Source of the DNA: Sulfuritalea sp.
Lineage (GTDB): Bacteria; Pseudomonadota; Gammaproteobacteria; Burkholderiales; Rhodocyclaceae
Length of the DNA: 64,000 bases
Reading direction: 5' to 3'
NCBI GenBank assembly: GCA_022842325.1
Contig: JALHPU010000001.1
Coordinates: 208,934-272,933 of the forward strand
Part shown: in pieces, positions 21,983 through 25,215 of the stretch
How the letters are laid out: each line of letters opens with the position of its first letter
How positions within the stretch are numbered: the first letter of the stretch is position 1
Position numbers and translations under genes: made by a program
Notes under the pieces: model-generated
Seen by the model: the letters and a program-made list of their open reading frames with translations, nothing else
Database searches by the model: none
What the model was told of the DNA's origin: nothing

Positions 21983-22666
21983 GTGAAACCGGCGCGCTCC
22001 CTCGCGCGGCTCAACGGCCGGATCCTCAACGCCTACAGCCAGCGGACCACCGCGGCGCTGCGCGCCACGCTGCCGCTGCGCCTGGCGTTGCCCCACCTGG
22101 AGCCGGTGCTGGCGCTCAACGTGGCCAAGGAAGTGGAGAAGGACACGCTGGTCATCCTGCGCACCCGCGAACTGGCGACAGGTGCTGCGCCGGACTGGAA
22201 CGAACTGCTGCCGCAACTGCTGCAGGCGACCAAGGACATCGATCGCATGTTCCTCGCCCGCGTTGGCAGGTTCCCGGTCGAGATCGTGATCCGCTACGAC
22301 GAGATCGCACCCATCCGCGCCCGGCGCATGAAGCTGCTGCATGAAGCCGCGCTGCGCATCCTGCACGCCCACGGCAGCGGACATCGCCTGCGCAGCGCGA
22401 TGCGCACGAGCTATTCGCGCGAAGAGTTCGCGCAACTGCTCTACGAACTTTTTCGCCTCTACGCCGAAGAAACCCGCTCCCTGAGCCGCTCGGTGCGCCT
22501 GCCCGGCCCCCTGGCCGCGCTGCGCGAACTGATCGCACAGGAACTGCTCAACGTCATGCTCGGCGTCGCACGACCACTGGCGCAAGAGATCGCAGCGGCG
22601 GCGTTTCGCCCGATGGCGACCAGCATCCCGTCCGCATCGACCATGGGGACCGCTCCAGGCGATTGA
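21983..22666 (+). CDS. Hypothetical protein, 227 aa, end of frd operon
   Basis: I do not recognise this protein. It starts at GTG 21983, with GAGAAGG about 6 bases upstream, 13 bp after the methyltransferase gene. It is arginine- and leucine-rich, apparently helical, without signal peptide or clear membrane span. Segments such as DIDRMFLARVGRFPVEIVIRYD and MKLLHEAALRILHAH suggest a helical bundle. Position at the end of the frd operon hints at a role with the enzyme or its quinone. The C-terminal 30 residues look disordered. Confidence 0.6.
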   Translation: MKPARSLARLNGRILNAYSQRTTAALRATLPLRLALPHLEPVLALNVAKEVEKDTLVILRTRELATGAAPDWNELLPQLLQATKDIDRMFLARVGRFPVEIVIRYDEIAPIRARRMKLLHEAALRILHAHGSGHRLRSAMRTSYSREEFAQLLYELFRLYAEETRSLSRSVRLPGPLAALRELIAQELLNVMLGVARPLAQEIAAAAFRPMATSIPSASTMGTAPGD

Positions 22667-22749
22667 CTGCCACCGCCAAGTGCAGGGATACTCATGGCGC
22701 CATCGTTGAACGTTCAACGATTCCGACGCACCTCGACCAGGAGTGACCC

Positions 22750-23592
22750 ATGAAACCGCTTGTCCGGATTGCAGCACTCGCCGCCACGCTGGGCGCACTG
22801 TCCGCCCTGCCCCCGGCATCCGCGGCGGACGCCAGACTGCCGATTTTCGATGCCCACGTGCACTACAGCCACGACGCGTGGGAGAGCACGCCGCCCAAGG
22901 CGGCGATCGCCATCCTGCGCAAGGCGGGACTCAAGCGCGCGATGGTGTCCAGTTCCAGCGACGAAGGCACGCAGAAGCTCTACGCCGAGGCGCCCGACCT
23001 CGTGGTGCCGTCCCTGCGGCCCTATCGCAAGCGCGGCGAGATTTCGAGCTGGGTGCGCGACGAGACCATCATTCCCCACCTTGAAGATCGCCTGAAGAAG
23101 TATCGCTACGCGGCGATCGGCGAATTTCACGTCTATGGCGCCGACGCCGACCTGCCGGTGGTGCGGCGCACGGTGCAACTGGCGAAGCAGTACAAGCTCT
23201 GGCTGCACCTGCACGGCGACAGCGACGCCATCGAACGGGTGCTGGCGCAGGATCCCGAGGCGCGTATCCTCTGGGCCCATTCGGGATTCGACCGGCCCGA
23301 GGCGGTGCGCGCGATGCTCAGGAAGCATCGCAAGCTTTACGCCGACCTGGCCTTCCGCAACGACCACGCCAGCAACGGCAAGGTCGATCCCGCCTGGCGC
23401 GAGGCCTTTCTCGAATTTCCCGACCGCTTCCTGGTCGGCACCGACACCTTCACCCCCGAGCGCTGGTACTACATCGCCGAGCATGCCGACTGGTCGCGGG
23501 CCTGGCTGGCGGACCTGCCGCGCGAGATCGCCGAGAAGATCGGCTGGCGCAATGGCGAAACCCTGTTCGCTTCGATGATGGCAAACAAATGA
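22750..23592 (+). CDS. Exported metal-dependent amidohydrolase
   Basis: A 280-residue TIM-barrel hydrolase with a Sec signal peptide, cleavage probably after A25 (PASA-AD). Metal-site candidates follow the amidohydrolase-2 plan: DAHVH (H36, H38), GEFH (E125), HLHGD (H153, H155), AHSGF (H177) and GTDTF (D232). It has a good ribosome site (AGGAG). Most relatives are cytoplasmic, so periplasmic location is notable. It overlaps the next gene by 4 bp and belongs with two other exported proteins. The substrate is unknown. Confidence 0.78.
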   Translation: MKPLVRIAALAATLGALSALPPASAADARLPIFDAHVHYSHDAWESTPPKAAIAILRKAGLKRAMVSSSSDEGTQKLYAEAPDLVVPSLRPYRKRGEISSWVRDETIIPHLEDRLKKYRYAAIGEFHVYGADADLPVVRRTVQLAKQYKLWLHLHGDSDAIERVLAQDPEARILWAHSGFDRPEAVRAMLRKHRKLYADLAFRNDHASNGKVDPAWREAFLEFPDRFLVGTDTFTPERWYYIAEHADWSRAWLADLPREIAEKIGWRNGETLFASMMANK

Positions 23593-24029
23593 TCAATAGT
23601 CGGCGCTGGCGAGACGGCGGCCGTGCGCTCGTTGCGCTGGCCCTGGGCGTAATCACAAGCACCGCGCCAGCCGCCTGCCCACCTAACGCGACCGATGGCG
23701 CAGTGCTCAAGGCAGGCGAACTGGTGCTTGCCTATCGGCCGGTCGTGGCCGGCAAGACAAGCCGCATCCCGATGGCCCAACACTTCGCGCTGGAGGTGCA
23801 GTTGTGCGACAAGGCCGGCGTCTCCGCCGCCCGCCTGCAGAAGGTCGATGCGACGATGCCGGAACACAGGCACGGCATGAACTATCGCCCGCAGATAACG
23901 CCGCTGGGTGACGGGCGCTTTCGCGTCGAGGGCATGATGTTCCACATGGCCGGCCGTTGGCAGCTCGTCTTCGAGGTGCTGGCCGGAAAAGTGGCGACGC
24001 GCCTCCCCGATGACGTGCAGATCGACTAG
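23589..24029 (+). CDS. Exported YtkA/FixH-like protein with Met/His motifs
   Basis: A 146-residue protein with a signal peptide of about 28 residues (RALVALALGVITSTAPA) and a single beta-rich domain. Two cysteines (C30, C73) could form a disulfide. The motifs MPEHRHGMN (90-98) and GMMFHMAGRW (115-124) place several Met and His close together, as in periplasmic copper-binding or YtkA-like domains. The lipobox rule fails (Pro at -3), so it is probably soluble. The start codon region, encoding INSRRWRDGG, lies within a copy of the dispersed repeat. It overlaps its neighbours by 4 and 20 bp. Confidence 0.7.
   Translation: MINSRRWRDGGRALVALALGVITSTAPAACPPNATDGAVLKAGELVLAYRPVVAGKTSRIPMAQHFALEVQLCDKAGVSAARLQKVDATMPEHRHGMNYRPQITPLGDGRFRVEGMMFHMAGRWQLVFEVLAGKVATRLPDDVQID
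23598..23619 (-). repeat. Copy of dispersed 26-bp repeat at the start of a gene
   Basis: The plus strand reads AGTCGGCGCTGGCG followed by AGACGGCG, which differs by one or two bases from the copies at 34843 and 43630. It is translated as the first residues of the exported protein starting at 23589. Confidence 0.6.
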
Positions 24030-25215
24030 GAATGCGGTGCGCTGGCTGCTGATCGCCGCTGCGCTGGCCGCGTTGTCGGCCTCCGCAGCATTCGCCAGCG
24101 AGGATTTCAGCGCCGCGGAACTCGGCCGCATCGCCGCCCACGGACCGTGGCCGCTGCCGTGGACATCCGATCCCGGCAGTCGCGTGTCGGGCAATCCCGC
24201 GGCGATCCGCCTCGGCCATGATCTGTTTTTCGAGCCGCGCCTGTCGGCCAACCGGCGCATCGCCTGCGCTTCCTGCCACGACCCGGCGCGCGGCTTTCAG
24301 GATGGCCGCGCCACCGCTCGCGGCCTGGTCGCCGGCGTGCGCAACACCCCCGGCCTGTTCAACGTGCGCCACCAGCGCTGGTTCGGCTGGGACGGCGGCC
24401 ACGACAACCTGTGGTCGGCCAGCCTGCGCCCGATCCTCGATTCGCGCGAAATGGGCGGCAAGGCCTCACGCGTGGCACGCACCCTGCGCGGCACGGCTGT
24501 TCTGGATTGCCATTACAGCGCGGCCTTCGGCAAGCGGCCGCATGCCGGCGACCCGGAACTGCTGGTCAACGTCGCCAAGGCGATCGCCGCCTGGCAGGAA
24601 ACGCTGATCTCGCCGGCAACGCCCTTCGACCAATTCCGCGATGCGCTGCAGCGCGGCGACACGCAGGCGGCCGCGGCCTACCCGGCGACCGCGCAGCGCG
24701 GCTTGCGCCTGTTCCTCGGGCGCGGGCAATGCGCGACCTGCCACGCCGGGCCGCTGTTTACCAACGGCGAATTCGGCGACATCGGCGTGCCTTTCTTCAT
24801 CCGGCCCAACGAAGTCGATCCCGGCCGCCAGGGCGGCATCAAGCGCCTCCTCGCCAATCCCAACAACCGGCTCGGCGCCCACAACGACGATCCCACGCGC
24901 GCCAACGCCACGGGAACAAAATTCCTGCGGCCGGAGCATCGCAACTTCGGTGAATTCAAGGTGCCGAGCCTGCGCAACCTGACACTGACCGCGCCCTACA
25001 TGCACAACGGCAGCCTCGCCACGCTGCGCGACGTCGTGCGGCACTACTCGGAACTCGACGAAGACCGCCTGCACGCCGACGGTGAGCGCATCCTCAAGCC
25101 GCTCAAGCTGAGCGAGGCCGAGAGCGCCGATCTGGTGGCCTTTCTGGAATCGCTGTCGCCCGCGACACCGTTGCCGCCGCCAGTGGTGCCTTCCTCCGTG
25201 GCAGCCTGTCGTTAA
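24010..25215 (+). CDS. Diheme cytochrome c peroxidase / MauG-family protein
   Basis: A 401-residue periplasmic protein with a signal peptide (cleavage near residue 29, AFAS). It has two c-heme motifs: CASCH (86-90) and CATCH (241-245). RNTPGLFNVRHQRWFGWDGGHDNLW and SREMGG are the conserved surroundings of the low-potential heme. APYMHNGSL (329-336) carries the residue at the distal side of the second heme, Met here as in classical peroxidases, where MauG has Tyr. It could reduce peroxide or oxidise a protein partner, as MauG and MbnH do. It overlaps the preceding gene by 20 bp, which makes that small protein a plausible partner (inference). Confidence 0.85.
   Translation: MTCRSTRNAVRWLLIAAALAALSASAAFASEDFSAAELGRIAAHGPWPLPWTSDPGSRVSGNPAAIRLGHDLFFEPRLSANRRIACASCHDPARGFQDGRATARGLVAGVRNTPGLFNVRHQRWFGWDGGHDNLWSASLRPILDSREMGGKASRVARTLRGTAVLDCHYSAAFGKRPHAGDPELLVNVAKAIAAWQETLISPATPFDQFRDALQRGDTQAAAAYPATAQRGLRLFLGRGQCATCHAGPLFTNGEFGDIGVPFFIRPNEVDPGRQGGIKRLLANPNNRLGAHNDDPTRANATGTKFLRPEHRNFGEFKVPSLRNLTLTAPYMHNGSLATLRDVVRHYSELDEDRLHADGERILKPLKLSEAESADLVAFLESLSPATPLPPPVVPSSVAACR

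Follow-up and report, generated by a model that had tools for sequence, protein, structure and literature searches.

In a 64,000-nucleotide window from a Sulfuritalea sp. genome (contig JALHPU010000001.1, positions 208,934 to 272,933), a small YtkA/CrdA-like protein is encoded directly before a MauG-like diheme enzyme, and our analyses reveal that these two proteins form the core of a conserved cassette, with the secreted amidohydrolase encoded ahead of them in the cassette at 22750-25215 lying outside that core. That the two proteins go together is evident from the linkage of their genes, the placing of the sampled partnered diheme enzymes in one group, a MauG-type tyrosine in the enzyme, the tracking of the diheme gene by an HxHG motif in the small protein across 94 genomes, and the match of the latter to a copper-protein fold. 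The association appears genuine, occurs in many bacteria and has apparently gone undescribed; by analogy, the best reading is that the enzyme would serve, as a MauG-like oxidant, one particular target, a His/Met copper site, and that the pair would be an analogue of MbnH-MbnP with another partner fold.

The observation of a three-gene operon, made in a preliminary description from the letters alone, is confirmed. The open reading frames overlap by 4 and 20 bp, the three products have hydrophobic, signal-like N-termini (judged by eye rather than by a predictor), and the family assignments (Amidohydro_2, YtkA and CCP_MauG) are all above the curated Pfam cut-offs. The features are as follows.

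22750..23592, + strand: secreted amidohydrolase (PF04909; TatD/amidohydrolase-like TIM barrel), 280 aa; from Pfam, conservation and model fold
23589..24029, + strand: small YtkA-like (PF13115) protein with a CrdA-like fold, presumed copper-binding partner, 146 aa; from Pfam, conservation and model fold
23856..23879, + strand: MPEHRHGM motif, residues 90-97 of the small protein, presumed copper ligands; M90, P91, H93 and H95 invariant in 104/104 rows
23943..23960, + strand: HMAGRW, residues 119-124 of the small protein; H119 in 102/104 rows, M120, G122 and W124 in 104/104
24010..25215, + strand: MauG-like diheme c-type cytochrome (PF03150), 401 aa; from profile scores and alignments
24265..24279, + strand: first heme motif CASCH, residues 86-90
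24730..24744, + strand: second heme motif CATCH, residues 241-245
25045..25047, + strand: Tyr346, aligned with MauG Tyr294 (six-coordinate heme ligand); Tyr in 96/96 rows with a letter, gap in 7/103

The second motif named in the preliminary description, GMMFHM, occupies residues 115-120 of the small protein, and W124 and the enzyme's Met331 (in PYMHNG) are likewise where it had placed them.

A scan of one genome per species (84,980 species) gave 449 relatives of the small protein, of which the best 80 were kept; linkage was thus measured near the query, and many of the loci are from draft metagenome-assembled genomes. Among these best 80 of 449 loci, the diheme gene lies directly 3' of the small gene in 78 and the amidohydrolase gene directly 5' in 75, with all three genes in this order in 74, which is far beyond chance and supports a strong linkage of the three families, the co-occurrence that had been proposed as a check. 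The five loci with no amidohydrolase match include two at a contig end (L061, L082) and three that are not (L073, L083, L092). Record titles assign the best 80 loci to beta- and alphaproteobacteria (Rhodocyclales, Burkholderiales, Reyranella, Rhodospirillaceae), the closest named ones being titled Sulfuritalea and Rhodocyclales.

Wider searches separate the pair from the amidohydrolase. Within 150 related genomes the small protein was matched in 27 (own genome included), giving 28 loci at which the diheme gene adjoins in 26 and the amidohydrolase in 20, the two diheme-less ones (L034, L035) being marginal matches and two others (L032, L036) one and the same place. A phylum-wide profile search matched the small protein in 16 of 398 genomes, again counting its own; the other 15 loci have the diheme gene next door in 13 cases and no amidohydrolase within the fetched 1.5 kb either side. 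No constant third gene was seen by eye around 16 places, one of which (L178) is a full cassette, with gene calls for the wider surroundings that are heuristic and sometimes on the wrong strand. The amidohydrolase profile (E 1e-10) matched in six of 19 pair-carrying genomes, and only one of these (G582) matches closely, at 381 bits and within a full cassette; the other matches score 214 bits or less, and the stretches fetched around them contain neither a small-protein gene nor a diheme gene. The amidohydrolase was therefore rejected as an obligatory member, pairs without it being common, and the core is the pair of YtkA-like protein and diheme enzyme. The idea of a three-gene system holds for one sub-clade, that of this window, but fails as a description of the general core. 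We also considered whether HGMNY and H119 correlate with the amidohydrolase, and the relation is not strict: L026 and L031 have MNY and HM (genomes G102 and G149, with no amidohydrolase match). The loci of the two locus searches partly repeat the same places; L034 and L035 (marginal), L029 (truncated) and L036 (same place as L032) were dropped from the small-protein alignment, and L029 from those of the amidohydrolase and the diheme enzyme.

The association of motif and diheme gene holds in both directions. In a sample of 94 genomes of the class (own included), YtkA-domain matches at E 0.001, all of which were read, number 50 in 47 genes, three genes holding two matches each. HxHG is present in 10 of the 50, and a diheme gene adjoins all 10; the 40 matches without HxHG have no diheme match within about 1.5 kb either side (less at contig ends), such that motif and neighbour agree in 50 of 50. 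Conversely, the diheme profile gives 12 matches at 298-648 bits in the same genomes, followed by a drop to 222, and a YtkA-like gene with M..HxHG adjoins 11 of these 12, the pair of one genome (G575) having the variant MLGHGHG. At diheme loci of 222 bits or less the motif was found in 0 of 20 fetched, also with a widened pattern that takes in MLGHGHG. The matches are related by descent, and these counts are not of independent events. A natural loss points the same way: in the L130 locus, the genome of which has no diheme-profile match, MPxHxHG is gone from the small protein and FHM has become FLA, with the Trp kept, so that what disappeared along with the diheme gene was the motif and not this residue.

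A tree of 61 diheme sequences places all 32 partnered ones, together with that of L228, in one group (100/98); the tree is midpoint-rooted, so the group is strictly one side of a branch, and the sequences are a selection that includes 11 of the 78 linked diheme loci. Inside this group 16 rows form a group of their own (100/99), 15 of them with the amidohydrolase adjoining. L228 (2534-4183, G582) is the twelfth top diheme match and has no YtkA gene in the fetched stretch. Its frame carries an extra N-terminal part, faintly similar to the small protein (hhalign probability 20%, E 0.001; no Pfam YtkA at E 0.1) and without the His/Met motif, which may be a degenerate YtkA domain. With such scores we consider this fusion weak as proof of an interaction and have set it aside.

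The small protein is a member of the YtkA family (27.2 bits, cut-off 25.9), as are 42 of the 44 members of alignment A3 at E 0.01, and over 104 rows it has G115 as a further invariant residue beside those listed above; of its cysteines, C30 is kept in 103/103 rows and C73 in 102/104. No NCBIfam model matches it at E 1, and so neither does the MbnP model (TIGR04052), which has been named together with TIGR04039 (PMC3621798). A sequence search of the PDB with the small protein alone gave nothing at E 1. Its AlphaFold2 model is all-beta (pLDDT 86.9), and the best PDB match of the model is Helicobacter pylori CrdA, with Z 12.8-12.9 for the apo and silver forms and Z 10.5 for the next match (rmsd 2.0 over 100 residues, 17% identity; Foldseek E 9e-5). 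Because the rows below CrdA in the VIA-align output mix the copper proteins P19, FetP and PmoD with unrelated sandwiches such as filamin at Z 8-9, only CrdA was used as a fold match. The sequence profile match to CrdA is weak (E 0.32) and sets MPEM, GM and MxGxW of CrdA opposite MPEH, GM and MxGxW. The proposed Cu(I) cluster of CrdA comprises Met69, Met72, Met75, Met78 and Met99, and CrdA is noted to lack His (PMC9182242), unlike the small protein with its HxH; from the alignments, the partnered proteins look like CrdA-type sites with Met replaced by His. The copper-protein fold, together with the tracking of the diheme gene by the His/Met motif, supports the plausible copper site that the preliminary description had given the small protein.

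Two known relatives handle copper. CrdA shares the fold (PMC9182242), and CtaK/YtkA of Bacillus subtilis, which is implicated in Cu(A) assembly, shares the family (PMC13344008); the available parts of these two papers make no mention of a diheme partner for either. According to a 2025 paper, two B. subtilis YtkA domains are the only ones studied experimentally (PMC12362106). A lipobox-like sequence is present within the first 60 residues in 7 of the 80 small proteins (L037-L116), and some pair-only relatives appear lipoprotein-like by eye. YtkA domains also occur inside long frames (L132, L134-L139); the frame at L132:469-1938 joins one to a resistance-nodulation-division (RND) periplasmic adaptor, CusB-like by eye, with Met-only motifs, and a copper-efflux context is possible for it.

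The enzyme is a clear CCP_MauG member (133.9 bits, cut-off 25.6), with heme motifs at C86-H90 and C241-H245, but scores well below the cut-offs of both the MauG model (TIGR03791; 156.5 bits versus 443.85) and the MbnH model (TIGR04039; 153.1 versus 362.85); the two models are matched at E 0.001 by all 16 members of alignment A2, the best at about 1e-51. The best PDB match of its C-terminal part is the di-heme enzyme 6e1c, which we take to be MbnH. In classical cytochrome c peroxidases a Met is the sixth ligand of the high-potential heme; that Met aligns with Tyr346 of the present enzyme, and Tyr346 falls on MauG chain residue 294, MauG's Tyr ligand (PMC6405878). At the sixth-ligand position the enzyme is therefore MauG/MbnH-like and not classical, as the preliminary description had it by family; its argument that Met331 favours peroxidase chemistry does not survive, since MauG too reads PYMHNG, the diagnostic position is that of Tyr346, and Met331, tried as a heme ligand and rejected, says nothing on the matter. 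Glu147, kept in 102/102 rows with a letter, stands in the alignment where the peroxidatic heme has its acid-base Glu, and presumably corresponds to MauG E113; Trp124 of the enzyme is kept in 103/103 rows. A cassette sub-group (L057, L058, L062, L064, L067, L068, L073, L074, L094, L101) has Leu at position 127 of the enzyme (RWFALDG), with the Trp three residues earlier invariant. In genome G000 (loci L232 and L233), contig C3 has two adjacent diheme genes and contig C6 a 901-aa frame with two diheme units, adjoining Rieske-like and molybdopterin-oxidoreductase-like genes (by eye); these clusters presumably resemble iodate-reductase (idr) clusters, with a fused peroxidase pair on C6.

The amidohydrolase (Amidohydro_2, 37.4 bits, cut-off 26.4) has H36, H38, E125, H155 and H177 in 94/94 rows with a letter, H153 in 93/93 and D232 in 93/94; we take these to be metal ligands, and their conservation suggests an intact metal site. 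W101, W175 and W216 are kept in 94/94 rows. Its model (pLDDT 89.4) matches 3cjp (Z 22.3) and TatD-like enzymes, and the sole hit of a PDB sequence search was a nanobody at E 0.37, which we regard as a chance match.

With respect to known systems, the closest logic is that of CorB-CorA, SACCP-MopE and MbnH-MbnP, an analogy that is not firm. MbnH-MbnP is alike in having a diheme enzyme with a dedicated partner and differs in the partner, which here has the YtkA/CrdA fold, as it does in the low score of the present enzyme on the MbnH model; experimental work on MbnH reportedly describes chemistry on MbnP that we take as a parallel for W124 of the small protein. In CorB-CorA and SACCP-MopE a diheme peroxidase-like protein is co-transcribed with a copper protein (PMC3912023) and is thought to turn a Trp by the copper into kynurenine (PMC3912023, PMC3621798), the copper being held by two His and the Trp-derived kynurenine (PMC3912023); the partner is a different protein from that here, which has HxH and Met, and a Trp common to the whole YtkA family. 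MauG of the methylamine dehydrogenase system shares PYMHNG, the Tyr294 equivalent and a Glu at the acid-base place, and differs in its model score and in W199, which has no equivalent here, where the residue is Gly239. The mtoX-SCO1-mauG operon of methanethiol oxidase likewise combines an enzyme, a copper chaperone and a MauG-like gene (PMC5739008), with another enzyme and another chaperone family, and the pair here also exists without the enzyme. BthA of Burkholderia is a Tyr-ligated MauG-like enzyme with a fixed neighbour gene, a putative phosphatase (PMC6405878).

On these analogies, the mechanism that we favour, tentatively and at somewhat less than even confidence, is that the diheme enzyme matures the small protein's presumed copper site by an oxidation. 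The periplasmic CrdA/YtkA-fold protein would bind copper at its His/Met site and be the substrate of the enzyme encoded directly after it; H2O2 would activate the enzyme to a high-valent state; and the enzyme would then oxidise a residue at or beside the site, W124 being the likeliest one if MopE, CorA and MbnP are taken as models, and a chaperone or scavenger would in this way obtain its functional copper site. The secreted amidohydrolase would be an accessory third component, added in one sub-clade that includes this window.

Several observations weigh against this mechanism. The preliminary description had singled out W124 as a special mark, but GxW is present in 37 of the 40 unpartnered YtkA-domain matches as well as in 10 of the 10 partnered ones (one of the three without it, L144, is cut off before that position), and also in CrdA. 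The Trp of GxW is a feature of the fold family, which may be only structural; because it is equally kept in unpartnered domains, its conservation is no evidence of modification, and we have rejected it as such. It also stays in L130 after motif and diheme gene are lost. W124, four residues after M120, is perhaps near the site, and it stays a candidate for oxidation. Two loci have the motif with no working partner beside it. In L115, the opposite case to L130, the amidohydrolase and small genes are intact with the motif kept and the diheme gene is a remnant (L115:5381-5730), two gene ends with a stop, in a genome with no diheme-profile match; the loss is perhaps recent. In L092 the small gene with its motif is an orphan with no diheme gene beside it, the genome having a diheme match elsewhere, spread over two frames. 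Within the enzyme, Trp127, which presumably faces the inter-heme Trp, is Leu, Arg or His in 12/103 rows, and residue 239, which we take (counting back from the heme motif) to be the place of MauG's hopping Trp199, is Gly or Ala in 99/100 rows with a letter. The Tyr at the ligand position is also found in the alignable unpartnered CCP_MauG paralogs of the window's own genome, where its context is FY versus HY in the partnered enzymes, and therefore marks MauG-like proteins in general. Finally, the analogy itself is weakened by a result reported for M. alcaliphilum, in which loss of the CorB-like gene left a partner taken as still copper-binding, and by the placing of the kynurenine in the second sphere (PMC3912023).

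The copper-site maturation reading is nonetheless favoured over three others, of which the strongest, that the small protein is a redox partner, we consider unlikely. The diheme enzyme would be a peroxidase taking electrons from Cu(I) at the His/Met site, so that the periplasm would be cleared of Cu(I) and H2O2 at once by a pair working as a cuprous oxidase or copper-fed peroxidase. The part of the small protein that tracks the diheme gene is indeed its presumed metal site, in which the change from CrdA/CusB-type Met to His would suit a Cu(I)/Cu(II) couple, and the Trp does not track; the retention of E147 at the acid-base place in every row with a letter fits peroxidase turnover, as does the turnover of H2O2 by BthA, another Tyr-ligated enzyme, when electrons are supplied from outside (PMC6405878). 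Against this, MauG is called a poor peroxidase in the same paper, and the literature, in the parts available, treats YtkA and CrdA proteins as copper chaperones or delivery proteins, not as electron carriers.

Less probable again is that an ordinary peroxidase and an ordinary copper chaperone share an operon since copper and peroxide stress coincide, with no action on one another. Ordinary members of this kind exist in both families; shared regulation, however, does not easily explain why motif and gene track each other across many families of the phylum or why the partnered dihemes fall into a single group, and the classical sixth-ligand Met is replaced by Tyr. A shared operator was also looked for and rejected: a perfect 20-bp palindrome at 22702-22721, ending 28 bp 5' of the first start codon, was not seen ahead of the amidohydrolase gene at any other locus scanned, and the genome has a single copy of its 14-bp core; it is possibly a species-specific operator.

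A further reading, modelled on the proposal for mtoX-SCO1-mauG, makes the amidohydrolase the protein that is matured, by the diheme enzyme and the YtkA-like chaperone alike; we regard it as improbable: the order of roles is the same (enzyme, copper chaperone, MauG-like; PMC5739008), all three genes are kept in 74 of the best 80 of 449 loci, and the amidohydrolase has its three invariant Trp and an intact metal-type site, but pairs without it are common and in varied contexts, the 19 pair genomes hold one close amidohydrolase, inside a full cassette, and its site looks like an ordinary hydrolase site. More speculative still, and something we would expect to prove wrong, is that the sub-clade cassette is a maturation line in which the diheme enzyme oxidises the conserved Trp of the copper protein to N-formylkynurenine and the amidohydrolase deformylates it to give a kynurenine copper ligand; if true, the amidohydrolase superfamily would include a kynurenine formamidase that acts on a protein.

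Among the neighbours of the cassette, the gene 5' of it (21983-22666) adjoins it in many close relatives and has no Pfam family match at E 1. Wider neighbours were considered as parts of the system and rejected, being by eye only lineage synteny, such as that of the sdh and pst genes among relatives of Sulfuritalea. In L099, L130 and other Reyranella-type loci (a 10-locus cluster), the cassette, or what is left of it after degeneration, is preceded by a putative 2-oxoglutarate Fe(II) oxygenase gene (by eye). Nine loci (L058, L064, L067, L068, L073, L074, L088, L105, L109) are from metagenome-assembled records titled Bordetella parapertussis; how varied they are, and the sampling names they bear, suggest environmental genomes under a wrong label.

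MauG-like enzymes are common and, to our knowledge, few have a known partner. Examples with a dedicated partner have been described; a YtkA/MauG-type pair, or a YtkA/CrdA-type partner with this motif, was not found in the available parts of the literature searched, which excluded preprints and most subscription journals. The overall results show a two-way tie between a group of MauG-like enzymes and a family of small copper proteins that has a defined site motif, with a range that covers alpha- and betaproteobacteria (by record titles) and further families of the phylum. They thereby make it testable whether the maturation of copper sites by diheme enzymes is a general bacterial strategy or a speciality of methanotrophs.

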